This document shows positions 626 through 15,950 of a DNA stretch of 49,604 nt, one piece after another. Positions within the stretch are counted from its first letter, which is position 1, and each line of letters starts with the position of its first letter. A program made the position numbers and the translations under genes. Source of the DNA: a bacterium (GTDB taxonomy: Bacteria > UBP15 > UBA6099 > JAJRTR01); the NCBI GenBank assembly GCA_024278215.1, contig JAJRTR010000202.1, positions 1 to 49,604 of the forward strand, written 5' to 3'. The notes beneath the pieces are model-generated. The model ran no database searches. It was given only the letters and a program-made list of their open reading frames with translations, and was not told the DNA's origin.

Positions 626-1295
626 TGACTGTATCGCCCCCGCGTTATCGAAACGCTCTTTATTGATTTATACGTAATGCACCTGAAAAAAATTCGAGAA
701 TACCGGATTGCTTATATTATAAATTCCCGATTGGCAACCGAATCGAGGAGTTTGTGTATTATATCACAAGAGAGGGTGTGTACGGCAAGAGCGGGGATAA
801 AACAGTAGCGCGACAGCGAGCCGATTGCAAATTCTGATTCTGTTGAGGTCGACCGCAATTGCCCGGAGCCGCATTGGCGGCACGAGGGAGCAGGCAGGAA
901 AAATGAGGCAAAAATGCGACAAAAGTGCGGCATTTATGCCACACCTGCACCTGTTTTCGGCCTGTTCGTCCCGGGCAGCCTGTTTTGCGAATTCAAAAAA
1001 CAGCTTTCTGTAAGGGGGAAATCGATATTTCGCGTAAATGTATAAAATCGCGAATTATGGCACAAATATTGCTGTGTATGGATGGTAAACGCCGACGCTT
1101 TCGGTTTTATGCGTTCCCAAGGTGGACTCTGGGAACGAGAACAAGATTCAGTGAAGAGCCCAAAAAGCATTTCAGTAACATTGCATGTGGATGGTGAAGA
1201 GCGAAAAGAATCTGGATTTTTCAAGATTCGTGTGCCGTGCTCAAACCGTTTTTGTTTGGGCACGAATAATTAAATCTGAAAACATGAGGGGACCG
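626..1295. other. Non-coding gap with degenerate repeat
   Basis: No convincing gene lies in these 670 bases. Short frames on both strands have non-protein-like composition. The right half contains an inverted, interrupted copy of repeat family A (about 1106-1270). An AT-rich stretch around 700-765 may contain promoters in either direction, but no -35/-10 pair close to consensus stands out. Confidence 0.6.
1106..1270 (-). repeat. Dispersed repeat family A, degenerate inverted copy 3
   Basis: On the minus strand, two blocks match copies 1 and 2. GCGTTCCCAAGGTGGACTC at about 1111-1129 corresponds to the GTTCC...GGTCTACC block. GTGCTCAAACCG followed by TTTGTTTGGGCACGA near 1237-1264 corresponds to the CGTGCCCAAACAAA block. 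About 90 unrelated bases separate the blocks here, whereas they are adjacent in the other copies. The hairpin arms here read GTTCCCA/TGGGAAC, against TTCCAA/TTGGAA in copy 1. Confidence 0.6.
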
Positions 1296-4200
1296 ATGAC
1301 AATGTCACAGAAACAATGTCACAGATTACTTTCATACTTTATGGTTGTGGCTGCGTTTTTCATTTTTTGCGCCGCGACGGCAGCAGCCGATGATGTGGAA
1401 TTCAACTTCTTTGTCCCACGCGCTCCTTACCCACCTGAAATAACATCGGTGAATAATTCGCAAGCGATACAGGGGTGGGAAAGTTTCACTGTTTACGCGA
1501 CTATCGAAACCCGGACACAATACGAACCATGCTGTGACGGTGTGTGCGAACATGCCTGTGCGCCGAACTGTGACTTTTCCGAGTGCGAAACGAATGATTT
1601 CTATGGCGAACCCGACCCGCGCATTGTTCCGAACCCGCCCTGCATACCCAATATAAACGACACTTCGGGCGGCGCAAACGCGGATGTTTGCGGCAACAAA
1701 CCCGGCAACCCGAAGCTGTTCTACTACTACAACGGAGACACTTCAAGAGGCGGAAGCGTCGATATGGTCTACGATCAGAATACAGGCCAATTCAAGGCGG
1801 AAGTGCCGATGTTGGGTTCTGCTCATGACACTGAAATAATATACTACATCATTGCGGCGGACAGCACGGGAAATGTGGTTTCTCAAGTACCCGATACGAA
1901 AACAGTTGCTATGGCAACAATCTCCAGTTGGTACCCGGATTACTCGACACCTGCACTGGACAACTGCACGGTCGCCAACAGCTACGAAAGATGCGGCCGG
2001 TATATAAGCGGAACACCGACATGCTTTTCTTCGGACTACACAGTGAATGACCCTGAAGACGACACATGCGATGTCGACGGCAACCCGACAGACGGTCTCG
2101 AGATTGACGACATACTCGGATTCTCGGTCAGTGCGGGAAAGGGCTTTTTCGATATGCCCTCCGATGACGTAGTTGCCGTACAGGTTCAACTCGGCGCGAA
2201 CCCACCTGATCCCGGCACAAACAGCGGATCGATCGAGGCATATATTATCTCATTTTACAATCCGGATATACCCGACGCGAATCCTTATGACGTGCATATG
2301 CAAAATTCTTTTATTGTCACTTACCTGCCCGAAGCAGCCGGTTGCGACCCCAATCTTATAAAAGTGCTCTGGGACGGCGAATGTGTCACCAATCCCAACA
2401 CCCCCGATTTTTTAGGATGCAAACTTATTGTCGGCAGCCTGAGCGAGACAACCCTTCGGACCGGCGCATCAGGCGGCAAGTTGAATGTCGTGGCGAAAAA
2501 CGCTCTGCCTAACGGAGATACGATTATAGGCGGCGCGTCGAAAGAAGTGTATGTTAATGTGCAGACCGGCGCTATAGACCTCGCCGGCAGTATACCCTTC
2601 TGGCTTGTGGACAGCAGCAATGCGATGAATTTGATGAGAGAAAACCAGACAATTCAAGGAGATATTTGTATATGTTATGACTTCCCGCCTATAGTTATGT
2701 CGCCTGCCGAATGCAGACATCCGGACGGCTCTTCTTTCCCGGACGGCATCTGCGCGCAGAGCGACTCGGAGCCGGAGTACAACGAATGCTATCTCACAAT
2801 CCATTCGGCTCCCGACGTGGGATTCGTCGACAAATACAACATATATCACACCACCATCGACGACCCCTACACCGCGACGCTGGTACACACGATAGATACG
2901 AACATCACTGGCACCAACTATTACACATACAGAGTGGGCGACGAAGACGACGAATCGCTGGACGGCAAAACCCATTACTTCTATCTTACCAGTGTATTCA
3001 AAAACGGCCCCTATGAAACAAGAATGTCGAATGCGGGGAGAACCTACTGCACCGTGGAAGACTGGGTGCCGTCTGCCGCGCCGACGGATATGTCGTGCGC
3101 CACGCCGTCCGGAAGCGAGGGCATCTGCGAATGCACATGGAAGATGAACACACTCGACGATCCGTCAGTTAACGGTTTTTTCATCAGCCGCGACCAGGTC
3201 AACATCAACGCCAGGCCACTTAGAGCAGTATCCAACCAGTCGAGCTACCAGTACAGCTACACGGACAAATCCGACTATCTCGAGACCGGCGGCGGCCCCT
3301 ACACCTACAGGGTGAAATCTCTCGATGCCGGCAGCAACCAGTCCGCGCCGGCACCCGACGGCGGCGACTCGGCCTATTGCACACCTGAAGATTTAAAAAA
3401 ACCCGCAAAAATCGACAGCATGAGTATTACCTATAAATCCGACATTTATGGCGTCGATCTTTCCTGGGAACCAGGTGCGGACGACGACATCGCCGGCTAC
3501 AATGTCTACAAGTGTGAGGTAACTACAAGCGAGTTGGTCGACTGCCAGACAAAAGACGATTACCTGACCGGCGGCTATAACGAAAAAATCAACACGAGCC
3601 TTATCGCTCCCAACGAGCCGTTACAGATTTCCACAGAGAACTTCCCGCAGTCGGATGCAACATTCTGCTTCTGGGTGGAAGCCTGCGACAACTGCGACAC
3701 AGCGGGGACATGCCCGAGCAACGGCGGCGAACCCAATTGCAGCAGCCACGATACATCCAAAGTCCACAGAAAATGTCTCGCACTGACGTTATCCGATACG
3801 TCGTCTCCGCCCGACCTGCCCGTGTCGGTAAGCGCGTCGCCACTTCCGGAAGGCGGCACGTGCAAAGTCTCTTTCAGCCGTGTGACAACCGACGACGAAG
3901 GCGAATTCGAAAATGCGAGCTACCCTATACCGACAGAACTAATGGGTTACTATCTAATGCGCACGGAAGCCATCGGCGACGACTGCACAACAACGCCACT
4001 GGGTAATCCCGGAGACCTCGGCGGTTCTGTAATAGCAAAAACCATTTCTGCCGCACAGCAACTCGAAGACACGCTCGACGCTACCGACGACAACGGCGGA
4101 ACCGGCCTCACAAACGGGACTATGTACTGCTACACCGTTTACTCCTTTGACGCCGCCGGAAGATTCAAGACCGACACATTGACATCCAGCCGGATAGGAG

Positions 4201-5693
4201 CATGCACACCCTCGGACACAGAGCCGCCGGGCAAGCCGGAGATGGAACCGATAACCTGCGACGACTACACCTTCACACTGGGCTGGATCGGCCAGACGGA
4301 CAAAGACACGCTTACATACAACTTATACAGATGCGGCGACACGCTCGACAACTGCACCGCGACAGACTCCTACTCTCTGCTGCCGGAAGGCGCGGGCATC
4401 ATCGACACTACACTTCAAGACTACAATGTCACAACCGGCGACAACTACACATACTGCGTAACAGCAATCGATGCGGCCGGAAACGAAAGCGCCGTATATG
4501 AAAGTTCCAGCTACGCAAACTGCAAATACAGCACTCCTTCGGACAGACCCGTGGCGCCTGACGCGACAACCGCCTGGCAGGTTTCCGTATCACCTAACTA
4601 CGGTGCGAAGGCCTGCTGGACGGATTCCATCGACTACGATGCCGGCGGGCAGGGCTACAACATCTATGCCTGCAAAACGGATTGCAACGGCAAGGACGCT
4701 TCCTCCTGCTGTGAACTCAAGGTCGAGACAGGCTACACCGGCAGCCATGCCTGTACAGACGGCAGCGAATGGATGAAAAACAGTATTCCAGTGATCGAAA
4801 CAACCGACTACTACATCGGTGTCACTTATGTCGACGACAACGGAATAGAATCGTTAGCGTCTCTAACGAGCAATACCGTTGATATTGCAACGCTGGACAA
4901 ATGTTTTATCAATCCCCTTGCCTGCAAGACCACTGTTTCACTTACAAATCCAGTAACAAAGATGCTTGTCGAACCCTGCACGGGAGCCGACATCGGCGAC
5001 GCGACCGCCTGCAAAGTCACCGGCGAAGCGGCGACCGGCGGCTCATGCAGGTCCAACGGCATAATGAGAAAATGCGACGTTCCCATTAGCGGCATAAAAG
5101 TGGAAATCGTGCCCGTAACCTCCAGCGGACCGGGCTCGACCGGCAGTGACTACGGCGCTCCCATCAAAACAGGAGTCACAAACGCCGGCGGCACAGTCGA
5201 ATTCCAAGTCAAAGACTCGTATATCCAGACCGGCACGGAGTATGTTATAAGATTGCGCATCGACAACTATGATCCCGCCATTGAAAATATGTGCGACAAC
5301 GACGCTGAAAGTGACGGTTTCTGCGGCATGGCCCTTACGGACCCGATGGAAATCGACACCTCCGCCGGTACTGTAACAATGGCGGGAACGCCGCCCACAC
5401 TGCCCCCGGACTCCAGCGACGGCGGCTTCACTGGCGACATCGGCAACTTCAATGGCGACGGCAAAGTTGATGCACTCGATCTTGCAAAGATGAAACCCAC
5501 ATGGGGAAAGGTCAACGGTGCCCCATGCTACCGAACATGGGCCGATGTCAACTTGGACGGAAACATCAACGCACTTGATCTCGCAATCATGAAAAAATAC
5601 TGGGGGAAAGTAGTGGATAAATCCAAAATAAACAGGAACGCGCCCGGCGCGATGGTAGCCGAAGACGGCTGGCCGCCACCCGAGTGCAAGTGA
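1296..5693 (+). CDS. Secreted cysteine-rich FN3-like multidomain protein with C-terminal type I dockerin
   Basis: About 1465 residues. The frame is open from 1185, but the ATG at 1296 (with ATG 1302 as alternative) follows GAGGGG at 1286-1291 and starts directly at a signal peptide (hydrophobic core VVAAFFIFCAATAAA). An N-terminal Ig-like module carries the YYIIAADSTGNV signature. A beta-rich module follows, then about six fibronectin-III-like repeats (motifs such as DLSWEPGADDDIAGYNVYKC and TYNLYRC). Next is a Big/carboxypeptidase-regulatory-like domain. A dockerin begins near residue 1380 with two calcium loops: NFNGDGKVDALDLAKMK and DVNLDGNINALDLAIMKKY. Dockerins bind cohesins in cellulosome-like assemblies (family knowledge); no cohesin is in the window. 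Cys content is strikingly high for FN3 domains, with clusters such as CCDGVCEHACAPNC. The most likely role is an extracellular structural or binding protein. It ends in TGA. Confidence 0.9.
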   Translation: MTMSQKQCHRLLSYFMVVAAFFIFCAATAAADDVEFNFFVPRAPYPPEITSVNNSQAIQGWESFTVYATIETRTQYEPCCDGVCEHACAPNCDFSECETNDFYGEPDPRIVPNPPCIPNINDTSGGANADVCGNKPGNPKLFYYYNGDTSRGGSVDMVYDQNTGQFKAEVPMLGSAHDTEIIYYIIAADSTGNVVSQVPDTKTVAMATISSWYPDYSTPALDNCTVANSYERCGRYISGTPTCFSSDYTVNDPEDDTCDVDGNPTDGLEIDDILGFSVSAGKGFFDMPSDDVVAVQVQLGANPPDPGTNSGSIEAYIISFYNPDIPDANPYDVHMQNSFIVTYLPEAAGCDPNLIKVLWDGECVTNPNTPDFLGCKLIVGSLSETTLRTGASGGKLNVVAKNALPNGDTIIGGASKEVYVNVQTGAIDLAGSIPFWLVDSSNAMNLMRENQTIQGDICICYDFPPIVMSPAECRHPDGSSFPDGICAQSDSEPEYNECYLTIHSAPDVGFVDKYNIYHTTIDDPYTATLVHTIDTNITGTNYYTYRVGDEDDESLDGKTHYFYLTSVFKNGPYETRMSNAGRTYCTVEDWVPSAAPTDMSCATPSGSEGICECTWKMNTLDDPSVNGFFISRDQVNINARPLRAVSNQSSYQYSYTDKSDYLETGGGPYTYRVKSLDAGSNQSAPAPDGGDSAYCTPEDLKKPAKIDSMSITYKSDIYGVDLSWEPGADDDIAGYNVYKCEVTTSELVDCQTKDDYLTGGYNEKINTSLIAPNEPLQISTENFPQSDATFCFWVEACDNCDTAGTCPSNGGEPNCSSHDTSKVHRKCLALTLSDTSSPPDLPVSVSASPLPEGGTCKVSFSRVTTDDEGEFENASYPIPTELMGYYLMRTEAIGDDCTTTPLGNPGDLGGSVIAKTISAAQQLEDTLDATDDNGGTGLTNGTMYCYTVYSFDAAGRFKTDTLTSSRIGACTPSDTEPPGKPEMEPITCDDYTFTLGWIGQTDKDTLTYNLYRCGDTLDNCTATDSYSLLPEGAGIIDTTLQDYNVTTGDNYTYCVTAIDAAGNESAVYESSSYANCKYSTPSDRPVAPDATTAWQVSVSPNYGAKACWTDSIDYDAGGQGYNIYACKTDCNGKDASSCCELKVETGYTGSHACTDGSEWMKNSIPVIETTDYYIGVTYVDDNGIESLASLTSNTVDIATLDKCFINPLACKTTVSLTNPVTKMLVEPCTGADIGDATACKVTGEAATGGSCRSNGIMRKCDVPISGIKVEIVPVTSSGPGSTGSDYGAPIKTGVTNAGGTVEFQVKDSYIQTGTEYVIRLRIDNYDPAIENMCDNDAESDGFCGMALTDPMEIDTSAGTVTMAGTPPTLPPDSSDGGFTGDIGNFNGDGKVDALDLAKMKPTWGKVNGAPCYRTWADVNLDGNINALDLAIMKKYWGKVVDKSKINRNAPGAMVAEDGWPPPECK

Positions 5694-7109: not shown

Positions 7110-9860
7110 ATGTTCATTATGGCGGAAAACAAGGTCTATATAGCTGCCGGATTCCACGTCAATTATAATCACTCCTGGCGTGGCGACCGAAACGATCGCA
7201 CCGGCTTCGGGCTCGATTCGCAGGTCATCGAGGGCATCCTCGACACACTCGACACCGCCAATGAAAGCGGCCTCGAAGCGCGGGGCACATGGGACTTCGA
7301 CAATTACTGGAGCCTCGAACACTGCATGCCCATGTTCGCGCCCGAACTTCTTCAGCGGATTCAAAAGCGCGTCATTGACGGCCCCGACGAAGTAATCCTC
7401 GACGCCTGGAACAACGGCTTGTACGGCGGCATGACCGAACACGAGTTCAGGGAAACACTCGCCCGCACTATCTCCAACGATGCCGGCTCCGGAATAAAAG
7501 ACCTTTTCGGCAACTACTCACCTGTGATTCGCACACAGGAAACCATGTTCACGCAGGGCGGCATCGAGTTGATGAAGGAATTCGGCATCGACGCTATCGC
7601 CCTCTACTACAGCAGCATCCCCTTCGACTCCATACGCAACTTCGTCCGCAGACTCACTCCCACTGAAATGTACAATCCCCTATGGTTCAACTCCACCGAG
7701 TCCGACGCGCGCTTGTTGATGATCCCCATGTACAACCAGGGCGATACTCTCAACCACGGCTCGATCTCAAAATGGGCCAGAGAGCTCCATCGCCGTCAGG
7801 AAAAAGGTGAACTCGACGGCAACGCGCTCATCTATATAAACATGGACGCCGACGCCGATATCTGGAACGGACTGCCGCTGCCCGGCGTTCTGAAAAAGAT
7901 TCCGAACACGCGCGGCCTGTCCGAATTTATCGAGACGGTTAACAAGCTGGATTACGTGGAATTCGCCACACTCGGCGATTATATAAGAGATAATGCGCCA
8001 GTCGGAGACCTGACCGTGTCGCAGGACCTCGCCGACGGCTCCTACACCGGCTATAACAGCTGGACGGAAAAAGAAGAGAACCATCGCCTGTGGCGCATCG
8101 CTGAACGCGCGCGCCGCCTGGCTGGCATCGCGGAATTCGCCACGGAAAAAGCGGATGTGGCGGACGACCGGCGGGCTGCTGCGCAAGAAGAACTGTACGA
8201 TTCGCCCGACTCGTATTTCGAGAACAAACTGCGGCTCCTTTCGACAACTCACTTCGGCATGCACGCGCCCGCCGTCCACTCGGAACGCGCGCAAGCGGGT
8301 TTCCATTACGCGCGAAATGCCTTCGAGAAAGCGATGCGACAAGCCGAAGATGCCGCCGGGTTGCTGAACGGGGACGCCGTGCCGGATGCCGATCCGCTGC
8401 TGTTCGCCTTCTCGATACTGAACCAGCCGAAATACAACAACGCGCCGGCCGCAACATCGCGGGCGAACATACTCGCCCGCGTACACTTCGGTCCGCTCGA
8501 TAAAAAGTGCAGGCCCACCGACCTCGAACTCGTTGCCGCCGACGGCTCGCCGTGCGCCTTCGACATTCTTAATCCGGTCATGGACGAGGCGGGCAATATC
8601 GTTTCCGGTACGCTCGTGTTCGTTAACGACGCTTCCGAACATCTCGCTTCATTCGCGCTTACTGTGAAAAAGGGCGAGCCTCCGAAAGATGAAATAAAAG
8701 TTTCAAAAGCCGGCATGTCAAACAGCAGGATCGACCTGAAACTCGACGACCGCGGCAGAATATATTCACTGAAGATGGACGGCAAAGAATTCTCTTCAGA
8801 GCAACTCCTTTCCCTTTCAGCGCTTTACAGGATCGACAGAAACAAAAAAACATTCTCTCCGCGCACGTATAAAGTCAAAACGGTGGAGACAGGCCCCAAA
8901 GGCCGCCTTGGCAGGCTCGGACTCGAAACACAGGTCGTGATTTTCTCGAAAGGAAAGAACTACACGATCAAAGCAGCGTATGACATAATGCTGTTCGATA
9001 AACTTCCTTATGTGTTTGTGGACGCCGACGTCAGGTTCCCCGACACGCCGCGCGGAGGCGGCGAGAAAGGACTGGCAACCGGCTCGGAACGTGAATTCGA
9101 CACAAACTGGTTCGAGGTCGCCCCCGCTCAGATAGCGCCGGGCATCCACAACAAGCCGGGTAGCTTCCTCAAGGTGTGGAAACACAATTACATGAACAAA
9201 ACAAATTGCTACGAATTCAATTACGGCGAGATACACAGGGGCAACAGGAATGTGGACGCATGTAACAACCACATAACCGACGGCTGGGTCGCCGTCTCGA
9301 ACGCTGACAGGGGATTCCTCCTGAGCTGCGACGCGGTAGTGAACTCCTCGGCAGCATACTGCCCGATGCGGCTGCGCGAGCGCGGTGGCAGGCAGCATGT
9401 GTTCCTGAACCCGTTCGGCACGTATCACGGCGAACAGTTCACACACCTGAACGACGGCTTCAATCTCGCGGCGTATATCACGACACTGGTGGGCGCGCAA
9501 CTCAAATCGGTCGCGCCGTCGTATAACAACCGTCGAGTACGCATAAATATGATGTGGGCACCATACATGGGCGACGAGCCGCCGGCGCAGACAGCGACAG
9601 ACGCCGACAGGTTCAGCATGCCGCCCGCTGTGCTTCTGCATGAAGACGGCGCCACAAAGCTATATATCGATCCGGTTGCCGCTGAAGAACTGAGGGAAGC
9701 TGTCGAAGAATATAATCTCGATCAGTGCCGCGGCTGGTCGTATAAAGACTTCCTCGAAGAAAGAAACAGGGGATTGCCCAAAGGTGTACCGCCGAAAGAC
9801 AAAAGCGGCGACAGGTTTATCCACCTGATTAAAGGATTGTTCGACGGAATGAAACATTAG
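7110..9860 (+). CDS. GH38/GH57-like glycoside hydrolase
   Basis: 916 residues (or 913 from ATG 7119). The first 330 residues have the look of the glycoside hydrolase/deacetylase beta-alpha barrel: an opening HVNYNHSWRGD, GTWDFDNYWSLEHCMP, and IRTQETMFTQGG at about residue 147, placed like the catalytic 'R-x-P/Q-E' strand of GH57-type enzymes. A helical middle region (about 330-430, including TTHFGMHAPAVHSERAQAG) and a long beta-sandwich C-terminus follow, as in GH38 alpha-mannosidases. Substrate and catalytic residues are not certain. There is no signal peptide, so unlike its two upstream neighbours it is probably cytoplasmic. It ends in TAG, so TAG terminates translation here. It lies 64 bases after the exported beta protein, with a weak ribosome site. 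Confidence 0.7.
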   Translation: MFIMAENKVYIAAGFHVNYNHSWRGDRNDRTGFGLDSQVIEGILDTLDTANESGLEARGTWDFDNYWSLEHCMPMFAPELLQRIQKRVIDGPDEVILDAWNNGLYGGMTEHEFRETLARTISNDAGSGIKDLFGNYSPVIRTQETMFTQGGIELMKEFGIDAIALYYSSIPFDSIRNFVRRLTPTEMYNPLWFNSTESDARLLMIPMYNQGDTLNHGSISKWARELHRRQEKGELDGNALIYINMDADADIWNGLPLPGVLKKIPNTRGLSEFIETVNKLDYVEFATLGDYIRDNAPVGDLTVSQDLADGSYTGYNSWTEKEENHRLWRIAERARRLAGIAEFATEKADVADDRRAAAQEELYDSPDSYFENKLRLLSTTHFGMHAPAVHSERAQAGFHYARNAFEKAMRQAEDAAGLLNGDAVPDADPLLFAFSILNQPKYNNAPAATSRANILARVHFGPLDKKCRPTDLELVAADGSPCAFDILNPVMDEAGNIVSGTLVFVNDASEHLASFALTVKKGEPPKDEIKVSKAGMSNSRIDLKLDDRGRIYSLKMDGKEFSSEQLLSLSALYRIDRNKKTFSPRTYKVKTVETGPKGRLGRLGLETQVVIFSKGKNYTIKAAYDIMLFDKLPYVFVDADVRFPDTPRGGGEKGLATGSEREFDTNWFEVAPAQIAPGIHNKPGSFLKVWKHNYMNKTNCYEFNYGEIHRGNRNVDACNNHITDGWVAVSNADRGFLLSCDAVVNSSAAYCPMRLRERGGRQHVFLNPFGTYHGEQFTHLNDGFNLAAYITTLVGAQLKSVAPSYNNRRVRINMMWAPYMGDEPPAQTATDADRFSMPPAVLLHEDGATKLYIDPVAAEELREAVEEYNLDQCRGWSYKDFLEERNRGLPKGVPPKDKSGDRFIHLIKGLFDGMKH

Positions 9861-10364: not shown

Positions 10365-10500
10365 GCTGTTTATTGGAAGAGCAGCTAGGATACGCAGCGT
10401 TGAAAATGACATAAAAGCAGGTAATATGCACACTAAGAGGTCTGTTACAATTCAGGTGTGAACGACTCTAAACACAGAGTTGGTTTTGTAAAGAGGAAAT

Positions 10501-12018
10501 TTGGATAGACTGCTCAAAACAGAAAGTGTCGTGGGTGTGGACGTAGCGCCCGACTATATTCGAGCGACGGAGATCGAGCGGGTCGGCGAAGACTACTATC
10601 TGCGCAACATCGGCCTGAAGGCGACCCCCGAAGGAGCGGTGGTCGATGGACTGATCGTCGACACCGCGGCGGTTGCGAAAGCGCTCAGATCATTGTTCCG
10701 CGAGCGCCGATTCGAGTCGAACCGGGTGGTGGCGGCTGTTCGGGGCAAGGGTGTAGTGAGCCGGATCATCACCCTGCCTTCGATGCCCCAGGACCGCCTC
10801 AGCAAGCTCATCGAAAACGAAGTCAACCGCTACGTCATATTCAGCGAACAGGACAAAGTAGTTTTCTATTATCCACTCGAAGAATTCGACGAATACGACC
10901 GCCGCAAAGTCAACGTGCTGCTTGTGGTAGCGCAAAAAAATATTTGTAATTCCTTCAACGAGGCTTTCAAACAGGCAAAACTCGAGCTGGTAGCTCTTGA
11001 TTTCAGCATTTTCTCGATTCTGCGCGAGCTCCGCAACAGCACACAGCACCTGTCGCAAGGCAACACGATGACCGTGATCTTCGACCATCACGGCGCTTCG
11101 CTCAACATCTTCCATCGCGACATCATGCGCTATACGAGAACCATCAAGTTCGATCCTGAACGGTTCACGTCGGCAAGCAACGGTTTCCTTGACAGGATTA
11201 TCGCCGAAACACTGCTTTCTATGCAGTATTACCAATCCGAATCAATAGGTCACGAACCCATATCGCGAGTTGTGCTGAGCCTTGGCGGCACGGGCAGCAC
11301 AGAAGCGTATAATGCAATCCAGGAATCCATCGACGACATCCCCGTCGAAGCACACGCGCCGTTCTCGAACATAAAAGTCAACATGGACGATTTCCCGCCC
11401 GACATTATGGAACAGGTGGACACAAGTTTTATCACCTCCATCGGGTTGTCTCTAAGGGGCCAGGAACTCTATTTCCTCCCCTTCCAGGTCGACCTCATGC
11501 CCGCGGAGATCGCAGAAGGCAAAAATCTCAGACAACACATAAAATGGCTCGCTGTGATCCTCGGCATCATTTTATTGGGATTCATGATTCCGGGCGAATT
11601 CATCCTGCCCGCGCAGGAAAGAGCCGCAGTAAACGAGCAAACCACCCTGAAAATGGACCTACAGGGCAACGAAGCAAAGCTTACAAAACTGAAAAAACAG
11701 CAGGAAACCGCCATGCGGCTCAACCCTCTTGCTATCAACGTGCCGCTCACCGACAACTGGTCTCCCATGCTCGAAAGCATAAAACAGGTGATTCCCAAAA
11801 ACGTGCAGCTTACCAGCCTTTCGATGGAACCGCCCAACAGCATCGAGTTCATGGGCATCGCCGACTCGAACCCGTCGATATTCTATTTTGTTTCTTCGCT
11901 GCGGAATTCGCCGAACTTTGCAGATGTCGAACTTGGCCCGCGCAACGCCGTGCCCGTCTACGACAAGCCAATGGTCAATTTCGTGATACACTGCAAATAT
12001 ACCGGGTCAATGGAATAA
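10501..12018 (+). CDS. pilM: PilM-PilN fusion, type IV pilus/type II secretion inner-membrane assembly protein
   Basis: 505 residues from a TTG start four bases after AGAGGA. Residues 1-330 are PilM-like (actin fold): SVVGVDVAPDYIRATEIE at the N-terminus, a PilM-type midsection, and the adenosine-side loop VVLSLGGTGSTEAY. Near residue 320 the PilM-docking motif that normally begins PilN appears as FQVDLMPAEI. A transmembrane helix follows (WLAVILGIILLGFMIPGEFIL), then a coiled coil (about 380-405) and a ferredoxin-like periplasmic domain as in PilN. Separate PilM and PilN normally meet through exactly this peptide, so one chain carrying both is coherent. The phosphate-binding loops look degraded: VAPD replaces the usual IGSS, and FDHHGA stands where DIG is expected. 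PilO-like and PilP-like genes follow at 9 and 3 bases. Confidence 0.85.
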   Translation: MDRLLKTESVVGVDVAPDYIRATEIERVGEDYYLRNIGLKATPEGAVVDGLIVDTAAVAKALRSLFRERRFESNRVVAAVRGKGVVSRIITLPSMPQDRLSKLIENEVNRYVIFSEQDKVVFYYPLEEFDEYDRRKVNVLLVVAQKNICNSFNEAFKQAKLELVALDFSIFSILRELRNSTQHLSQGNTMTVIFDHHGASLNIFHRDIMRYTRTIKFDPERFTSASNGFLDRIIAETLLSMQYYQSESIGHEPISRVVLSLGGTGSTEAYNAIQESIDDIPVEAHAPFSNIKVNMDDFPPDIMEQVDTSFITSIGLSLRGQELYFLPFQVDLMPAEIAEGKNLRQHIKWLAVILGIILLGFMIPGEFILPAQERAAVNEQTTLKMDLQGNEAKLTKLKKQQETAMRLNPLAINVPLTDNWSPMLESIKQVIPKNVQLTSLSMEPPNSIEFMGIADSNPSIFYFVSSLRNSPNFADVELGPRNAVPVYDKPMVNFVIHCKYTGSME

Positions 12019-12027
12019 GGAACAGAA

Positions 12028-12621
12028 ATGATCGCGCTCTACTCGAAAATGACTATGCCCCAGCGGATCATCGCCGCCGTGCTGATCATAGCCGTTGCAG
12101 CAGCAAGCCTCTTTTTCCTTTATCTCGATCCGAAAACAAAAAATGTCCATGCGCTCAAACAAAAAAATGAAAAAACATCAAAACTGATACGCCTCCAGGA
12201 GGCGCAACTGGCAAGAATCAAAAACCCGGGTAAAATAAACGAATTCCTGCCTCCCGAAAAGCTCGAAACCCTTGCTTCTTTCGACAACAAAACCCTCTAT
12301 TCGTCGGAAATACCGGTTCTCATCGAACTGCTCGAGCAGGTTGTCGAGAAATCCGGTGGAAAAAATATCAGGATAGAAGAAGGCGAATCGTCGCCCGTAT
12401 ACATAAAAATGGGCAGACGAAACCAGATCTATGAAATGAAAGCCCTGCCGCTTCTGGTGGTTTTTGACGCTTCTTACGCTTCTGCATCCAACTTCCTTTT
12501 CCAGATCAAGGCGATGCGCAGAATGCTCAAGCTGACAAAAGTCGAATTGCGGTCGGAAGACCTCACGGGTAAAATTAAAGTGATGGCGGATTTTCAATTG
12601 TATTTTGCCGAGGAGCAATAA
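12028..12621 (+). CDS. pilO: PilO-like inner-membrane assembly protein
   Basis: 197 residues with the PilO/GspM layout. A short cytoplasmic N-terminus is followed by one membrane helix (IIAAVLIIAVAAASLFFLYL), a coiled coil rich in Lys/Glu/Gln (about 45-70) and a periplasmic alpha/beta domain. In the family, PilO pairs with PilN in the periplasm and scaffolds the alignment complex between the inner-membrane motor and the outer-membrane secretin. Sequence similarity among PilO proteins is low, so the name rests mainly on topology and on its position between PilMN and the PilP/GspC-like gene. The start follows GGAAC close to the pilM stop. Confidence 0.75.
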   Translation: MIALYSKMTMPQRIIAAVLIIAVAAASLFFLYLDPKTKNVHALKQKNEKTSKLIRLQEAQLARIKNPGKINEFLPPEKLETLASFDNKTLYSSEIPVLIELLEQVVEKSGGKNIRIEEGESSPVYIKMGRRNQIYEMKALPLLVVFDASYASASNFLFQIKAMRRMLKLTKVELRSEDLTGKIKVMADFQLYFAEEQ

Positions 12622-12624
12622 GAC

Positions 12625-13497
12625 GTGGGAATAAGCAGAAATTCATGGATTATCGCTATAATACTGATCGTGATGATACTAATAGCATGGTCTACCGACC
12701 CACGTCGCAACAAAATGAAATCCGGCGCAATGAGACCCCCGCCTAATCCGCTCATGCAACAGTTCGCCGCCGCTCCACAGGAACAACAACCCAACAACGC
12801 CGGACAACAGGCTTCCGGGCAGCAGAAAAATCGCAAAAAGACAAACAGCAGGTCACGCCGCCGGCAGGGCGCTTATGACGCAGCCGGATTCTCCGACTTC
12901 GAACTCCTCAACGACAGGTATGGCCGTAGTGATCCCTTCGCGCCTTTCTACGATATTCCGGAACCCGATGAGACGCTTCTCGATATACCCGCCATCGAGC
13001 CGCTGCCGCCCATGATACTCGAGAGCCCCGCCAATATGAAGCTTACCGCCGTTTCAATACAGGACGACGGTACAGGCATGGCCATCATCAACGGTGAAAT
13101 CGTTCGCGTCGGCGACTACGTACTCGGCTTCAGAGTTCACTACATCTCGCAAAACCGCGTCGAACTCATCAACGAACTCGGCGACAAAGCCATTCTCCGC
13201 ATCAAACAGGCTGTTCCCACAGGCTACGAAGTTACTCGCGGCGAGATCAGCAACATCCAGAAAGTGCCGGAAAAACAACCCCAGCGAACTGTCATACCCA
13301 CAAGACAACAATCGCCACTTCCGCTACCGCCGTCGAACTGGACAAACCTTCGCCCCGACGAACTTCCATCAGCACCGTCCACAAGACAGCACAAAAAAAC
13401 AAAACCGAATATCAGCATCACTCCGGACCCGCAGCAGGAAGCGCTCGACGAGATCCGGAAAATACTCTCCAATCCCGAAAATCTGCCTCTGAACTGA
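12625..13497 (+). CDS. PilP/GspC-like pilot of the alignment complex
   Basis: 290 residues from a GTG start nine bases after AGGAG. An N-terminal membrane helix (WIIAIILIVMILIAWS) replaces the lipoprotein signal usual for PilP and is more like GspC of type II secretion. A disordered Pro/Gln/Asn-rich linker spans about 30-85, and then comes RSDPFAPFYDIPEP, the PilP-type DPF motif. A small beta domain (about 130-195, LTAVSIQDDGTGMAIINGEI then VGDYVLGFRVHYI) corresponds to the HR/PilP fold that contacts the secretin N-domains. A second Pro/Gln-rich tail ends the protein. No secretin gene follows here, so the outer-membrane partner must be elsewhere. Confidence 0.75.
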   Translation: MGISRNSWIIAIILIVMILIAWSTDPRRNKMKSGAMRPPPNPLMQQFAAAPQEQQPNNAGQQASGQQKNRKKTNSRSRRRQGAYDAAGFSDFELLNDRYGRSDPFAPFYDIPEPDETLLDIPAIEPLPPMILESPANMKLTAVSIQDDGTGMAIINGEIVRVGDYVLGFRVHYISQNRVELINELGDKAILRIKQAVPTGYEVTRGEISNIQKVPEKQPQRTVIPTRQQSPLPLPPSNWTNLRPDELPSAPSTRQHKKTKPNISITPDPQQEALDEIRKILSNPENLPLN

Positions 13498-15650: not shown

Positions 15651-15950
15651 ATGAGCGAAGAAAACTATTCAGACAGGATCAAGGACCTTGTCGAGGAGAC
15701 CGTTGACAAGGTAAACGAAGTATTCGACGAATTCGGAGAAAAGGCCGGCGAGATCATCAAGGATATCGCGGACAACGAAAAAGTGGAAGACATTATCGAC
15801 AAAGTGCTCGAAAAGCGCAGAGACATTGCCGAAAATTCCGGCGACCTGATCAAGAAACTTACAAACGCCGTCGTCGACGCAGGCGACACCATCTCCGCAA
15901 TGTTGAACAAAGATGACGACGACGATGACGACGATTTTTTCGACGATTGA
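15651..15950 (+). CDS. Small acidic helical protein with Asp-run tail
   Basis: 99 residues, ATG ten bases after a strong GGGAGG. Residues 1-85 are almost entirely amphipathic helix with repeated Glu/Asp/Lys/Ile (DLVEETVDKVNEVFDEFGEK, VLEKRRDIAENSGDLIKKL), reminiscent of apolipoprotein-like or YtxH-type stress proteins. It ends NKDDDDDDDDFFDD, a run of eight aspartates. There is no signal peptide or membrane span. It is a single-gene unit: its own ribosome site precedes it and a strong terminator follows 29 bases after the stop. Function unknown; an abundant cytoplasmic accessory protein is a guess from codon start strength and isolation. Confidence 0.8.
   Translation: MSEENYSDRIKDLVEETVDKVNEVFDEFGEKAGEIIKDIADNEKVEDIIDKVLEKRRDIAENSGDLIKKLTNAVVDAGDTISAMLNKDDDDDDDDFFDD

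Follow-up and report, generated by a model that had tools for sequence, protein, structure and literature searches.

Positions 10501..12018 (+) of the window, by which we mean the whole stretch of 49,604 nucleotides analysed here, carry a fused PilM–PilN (GspL-like) gene of 505 aa. All 505 codons are open, with zero internal stops when the window is read in this frame; the frame begins at a TTG codon, and AAAGAGGAAA, read directly upstream of it at 10490..10499 (+), is its likely ribosome-binding site. The chain scores above threshold for both partners, with Pfam PilM_2 (PF11104) at residues 12–223 (1.5e-22, 80.5 bits against a cut-off of 27), NCBIfam TIGR01175 pilM at 136.5 bits against a cut-off of 133, and Pfam PilN (PF05137) at residues 423–499 (4.7e-11, above the gathering score). 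A single stop-free frame holding both Pfam domains thus bears out the proposal, made in an earlier note on this DNA, that PilM and PilN share one polypeptide; the PilM part, by the family's usual definition a separate soluble chain, is here fused in the same frame.

The actin-like PilM domain spans residues 8–323 (10522..11469, +), as judged from PilM_2 and from PilM fold matches with Z of 28–34. Within it, Arg21 (10561..10563, +) aligns with Lys26, the lysine with which T. thermophilus PilM binds ATP, and takes its place, and the segment named 2B after actin-fold usage is shortened to 24 aa (residues 213–236, 11137..11208, +) compared with 65–67 in separate PilM. The junction, GLSLRGQELYFLPFQVDLMPAEIAEG, runs from the PilM end through a short linker into a PilN-type peptide; sequence and model alignment place the junction and docking peptide, LPFQVDLMPAEI, at residues 326–337 (11476..11511, +), in which the VDLMPAEI peptide singled out earlier is intact at residues 330–337 (nt 11488–11511). 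It is followed by a predicted transmembrane helix at residues 346–366 (11536..11598, +), seen as a hydrophobic stretch and as a model helix at 335–362, a coiled-coil-like helix at about residues 371–407 (11611..11721, +; model helix 365–405) and a periplasmic PilN (ferredoxin-like) domain at residues 423–499 (11767..11997, +). The PilN features (NLLP-type peptide, transmembrane helix and PF05137 domain) are all present, as is the single-chain GspL-type layout, in which an actin-like domain, a transmembrane helix and a ferredoxin-like periplasmic domain follow one another. Because PilM and PilN are covalently linked, the fixed 1:1 stoichiometry and the membrane tether that the note had proposed would follow.

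The model of the fused chain built from a 36-sequence alignment reached a mean pLDDT of 84.9, while an earlier model from 5 sequences was poor (59.6). Its best match in the PDB is chain B of 5eou, the P. aeruginosa PilM:PilN1-12 molecule, listed as the single chain PilM,PilN (Z 34.4 over 320 residues, model 8–335), and this alignment takes in the VDLMPA part of the docking peptide, up to residue 335. Other matches are 2ych (PilM–PilN, Z 33.2), PilM crystallised without peptide (about 28) and cytoplasmic GspL 1yf5 (15.6, 6% identity); the fold search and its match table cover residues 6–338, with the periplasmic PilN/GspL domain outside this span and assigned from Pfam PilN and predicted secondary structure. 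Compared in this way, as the note had proposed, with the PilM–PilN peptide complex, the predicted fold is compatible with docking of the peptide in cis. The T4aP PilM proteins, including the single-chain crystal construct, share the fold and the position of the docked peptide with the fused chain, whereas the fusion in the window is natural, has a full-length PilN behind the peptide and has lost the ATP-binding lysine and most of 2B.

Two further genes continue the operon, starting 9 and 3 bases after the gene before them. The first (gene 2; 12028..12621, +; 197 aa) is PilO/GspM-like; it matches PilO alone at 0.016, its homologues match T2SSM in 4/5 cases (best 4.2e-7) and PilO in 3/5, and a profile search of the PDB reaches PilO at 6.9e-5. 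The second (gene 3; 12625..13497, +; 290 aa) is GspC/PilP-like, with an N-terminal membrane helix, no lipobox cysteine and weak matches to GspC_delta (0.0065) and, in four of five homologues, to CdsD_C (best 0.0014). The PilO-like half of the earlier description of these two genes therefore holds in the form PilO/GspM-like, and 'PilP-like' for gene 3 is a guess by position, drawn from order, topology and weak matches. Elsewhere on the plus strand of the window lie a 1502-aa protein that carries a type I dockerin domain at its C terminus (1185–5693), a 916-aa protein for which Pfam gives no family at E<=1 (7110–9860) and a 99-aa protein with an aspartate run at its end (15651–15950).

Conservation and spread of the fusion

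Of the seven phylum genomes, five, from three family groups, carry the fused gene uninterrupted at 39–52% identity to the window copy; it is absent from G004 (67% complete) and G005 (97% complete). The junction LPFxVDLxPxE is kept, with L326, P327, F328, V330, D331, L332, P334 and E336 identical in all five; the G002 frame opens farther upstream (596 aa), and the start matching the window copy was used. Scanning genome contigs with peptide patterns returned four loci, all phylum orthologues (MAGs ADurb.Bin236, USCA_metabat.19_sub, RA.bin91 and DeMMO6_30), a low yield due to the narrowness of the patterns. Could the fusion be an artefact of sequencing or assembly that erased a stop or frameshift separating two genes? 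In G213, pilM and pilN share a frame and are one stop and one codon apart, and a single error could join such genes. However, the same fusion with its conserved linker recurs across five genomes at the divergence given above, which makes a slip scarcely credible, and it was rejected for the lineage; separate genes at this junction, the finding that would have counted against the earlier note, were seen in none of the five genomes that have the gene.

The fusion is also widespread. Profile searches of 386 genomes, with candidates taken among the matches listed so that the counts are lower bounds, gave at least 50 fused frames in at least 45 genomes and at least 32 family groups (hand count). 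The first 19 long frames comprised 14 fused and five that were not (four in which PilN is separate from a long PilM, and the G213 pair), 35 further candidates comprised 31 fused and four that were not, and the five own-phylum frames complete the number. PilM_2 is found in 50/50 of these chains and PilN at E <=0.01 in the same chain in 34/50; the remaining frames were called by an NLLP-like motif after the PilM end together with a membrane helix, and the motif is poor in five fused frames (L197, L200, L207, L214 and L217). Among the first 14, five from other phyla (L090, L095, L096, L099 and L101) stand directly after pseudopilin- or GspK-like genes and are followed by GspM-like or secretin genes (by reading, with Pfam on part of them). 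Another six (L089, L093, L094, L097, L098 and L103) form one clade in trees; four of them lie behind a frame of about 940–1070 aa, which in L094, the one case shown by Pfam, is an AMIN-domain secretin, and the other two begin near a contig end. In L100 (G213), L061 (G262) and others, pilM and pilN share a frame with one stop between them, and loss of that single stop would therefore yield a fusion.

The architecture has been published for both secretion systems and pili and is not new in kind. Two papers regard GspL (EpsL/XpsL/PulL) as PilM and PilN fused by nature (PMC10191384, PMC6325625), and two others equate the two GspL domains with PilM and PilN (PMC3815138, PMC3724824). According to a 2025 preprint (PMC11870540), pilM and pilN are fused in most Campylobacterota T4P clusters; the available portions of PMC4471445 and PMC6744442 contain no further fused case. 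The Campylobacterota genes, likened here by published description alone, share with the window gene the joining of both in one gene of a pilMNOPQ-type cluster, but the window has no pilQ downstream and its genome has a separate pil operon. The Amuc_1101 family model (NF045709, 608 aa) likewise spans PilM, junction and PilN region; its positions 262–462 align to residues 230–432 of the window chain and it matches all five own-phylum fused proteins, although the window chain, at 69.8 bits against a cut-off of 650, is not a member. The earlier note's framing of the gene as an exception does not survive, since GspL is fused as a rule and fusion is common elsewhere.

Origin of the fused chain and changes at its ATP site

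Trees were built after one of 45 rows, L091 (a truncated near-copy of L090), had been left out. In the 44-row tree, the own-phylum fused clade groups among separate PilM rows, apart from the other fused rows (95/95), and on a long stem branch of 1.72; the same placement is recovered in an 84-row tree with a support of 95 by SH-aLRT alone, where the fused L207, L214 and L217 nest inside separate rows. Because the own-phylum clade and these three sit among separate rows, the trees suggest more than one fusion event; yet in AU tests on the 44-row tree neither a single clade made up of the 18 fused rows (p 0.15) nor one joining own fused with own separate rows (p 0.098) is rejected. The same tests gave p 0.0455 for own fused with T2SS-type fused and 0.22 for own fused with AMIN-type fused.

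The ATP site sets the two kinds of chain in the phylum apart. PMC6325625 reports that Lys26 of T. thermophilus PilM is required for ATP binding and that the K26A variant keeps its binding to PilF and, with PilN, its stimulation of PilF. The fused chain, with Arg at this position and DHHG in place of the phosphate motif DxGA, lacks the conserved ATP-site lysine and phosphate motifs of PilM. The position is Arg in 5/5 fused and Lys in 7/7 separate phylum proteins; the phosphate-2 motif is degenerate in all five of the former and kept in all seven of the latter, and the 2B segment has 23–24 residues in fused and 65–67 in separate phylum PilM. Long low-complexity inserts of up to about 200 residues occur in the PilM 2B loop of L085–L087, L092 and L090/L091, the last two with PPEKPPE repeats.

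A rule by which fusion leads to loss of the lysine was considered and weakened as the sample grew, and none is claimed. The lysine is lost in 12/18 fused and 2/26 separate rows of the first sample, compared with 16/49 fused (13 Arg, 1 Val, 1 Thr and 1 Asn) and 2/35 separate rows of the larger one, a comparison that has only 3–4 phylogenetically independent pairs and hence no statistical power. It is kept in 33/49 fused and 33/35 separate rows, and a 2B segment of <40 residues is found in 9/49 fused rows, mostly of one clade, and in 0/35 separate rows. Because most fused proteins elsewhere keep the lysine, its loss is, on these alignments, a trait of the own-phylum clade and a few others and not a general consequence of fusion.

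A probable second platform beside the pilus operon

The fused gene is not the sole PilM/PilN of its genome. Contig C109 carries separate pilM (401 aa), pilN (205), pilO (259), pilP (250, with lipobox) and a 966-aa secretin (pilQ), and a separate PilM is present in 7/7 phylum genomes. In contrast, a short secretin whose N0 domain is of the GspD type has the distribution of the fused gene, with matches at E <1e-100 in exactly those five genomes and none in the remaining two. G003 and G006 have it downstream of the fused gene on a shared contig: the G003 operon continues with a Wzy-like TPR protein, the 456-aa secretin (GspD-type N0), a TPR protein and an HtrA-type protease, and a single G006 contig holds the fused gene together with genes 2 and 3, the Wzy-like gene and the secretin. 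In the window genome, the Wzy-like, secretin, TPR and HtrA genes stand together on contig C67. The secretin scores 195.2 against TIGR02515 (PilQ) and 187.6 against TIGR02517 (GspD), below both cut-offs. The short-secretin copy of G001 (L115, G001:C98) has an in-frame TAG within the match.

Three PilB/GspE-type ATPases are encoded elsewhere in the window genome, with no ATPase or GspF gene in the fused-gene cluster, and a second GspF-type gene is present also in G005, which is without the fused gene. Contig C200 of the window genome (L045:554-2626, -) has a tandem array of five closely similar prepilin genes next to GspF- and GspE/PilB-like genes. Searches with the GspK (T2SSK) and GspG (T2SSG) models recognised no T2SS pseudopilins in the window genome; T2SSK matches in one of the seven phylum genomes, and T2SSG is above cut-off in none of them, a model that matches only 4/14 control genomes.

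We assign the fused gene to a second platform because its presence matches that of the short secretin, in the same 5/7 genomes and on the same contig in two, and it is probably the GspL-type coupling protein of a T2SS-like platform that stands beside the ordinary T4P set. The pseudopilin-, GspK- and GspM-like neighbours of fused frames in other phyla also favour this reading. On the cytoplasmic side, the actin-like domain would bind a PilB/GspE-type ATPase through the N-terminal part of the latter, while the chain's own PilN peptide would fill the docking groove in cis; the single membrane helix and the coiled coil would lead to the ferredoxin-like periplasmic domain, presumably paired with the PilO/GspM-like neighbour, and the GspC-like product of gene 3 may bridge to the short secretin on C67. 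We infer ATPase binding, assembly and a function in secretion or as a pilus, as well as a docking of PilN that ATP no longer gates.

Like the window protein, GspL, EpsL, XpsL and PulL are single chains in which one membrane helix links an actin-like domain in the cytoplasm to a ferredoxin-like one in the periplasm; the neighbours of the fused gene resemble GspM and, weakly, GspC. The window chain differs in that its actin-like domain is nearer T4P PilM, in that it keeps a PilN docking motif at the junction and in that its genome is without recognised pseudopilins. The T2SSL (PF05134) and GspL (TIGR01709) models gave no match to the chain at E<=1, a GspL/T2SSL search at E<=0.1 found nothing in the seven phylum genomes (21 genomes searched, five with a match), and a profile comparison with E. 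coli GspL and HofM reached probabilities of only 0.3 and 9.9, too low to be of use. Above PilM and PilN cut-offs and above no GspL cut-off, the chain is by sequence a PilM–PilN fusion that would probably work like GspL.

Several of these observations count against a coupling protein, namely the missing T2SSL/GspL and pseudopilin matches, the PilM-like actin domain, the lack of a clustered ATPase or GspF, the second GspF-type gene of G005, the incompleteness of G004 and a secretin whose PilQ score is as good as its GspD score. In a different account, the fused gene is the duplicate PilM–PilN of a second true T4P, retractable or adhesive, with the short secretin as its PilQ. The TIGR01175 score, the fold closest to T4P PilM, the slightly higher PilQ score of the secretin and the prepilin genes on C200 would all suit this account, as would the fused T4P pilMN described for Campylobacterota in PMC11870540. 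We nevertheless think it unlikely, given that gene 2 matches T2SSM better than PilO, that the N0 part of the secretin matches the GspD model and that gene 3 encodes a membrane helix but no lipobox, unlike both PilP, a lipoprotein according to PMC3724824, and the C109 pilP, which has a lipobox. The loss of ATP-site residues and most of 2B in 5/5, together with the long stem branch, could also mark a functionless paralogue of the pilus PilM–PilN in decay, but an open frame and operon kept in five genomes, invariant junction residues and a secretin that co-occurs in the same 5/7 make this very improbable.

A more specific history is possible, though doubtful: PilM and PilN of this phylum may have fused independently of the classical GspL and converged on it, lost the ATP-binding lysine and most of 2B, and built with the short secretin a secretion-type machine without recognised pseudopilins. 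If this were true, ATP gating of PilN docking would have become dispensable once docking was covalent. The PilM–PilN fusion itself is a common architecture and no surprise. The only part worth a test is the contrast within one genome between a separate PilM that keeps the ATP site and a fused chain that has lost it, which could show whether ATP binding by PilM matters only for docking PilN from a separate chain.
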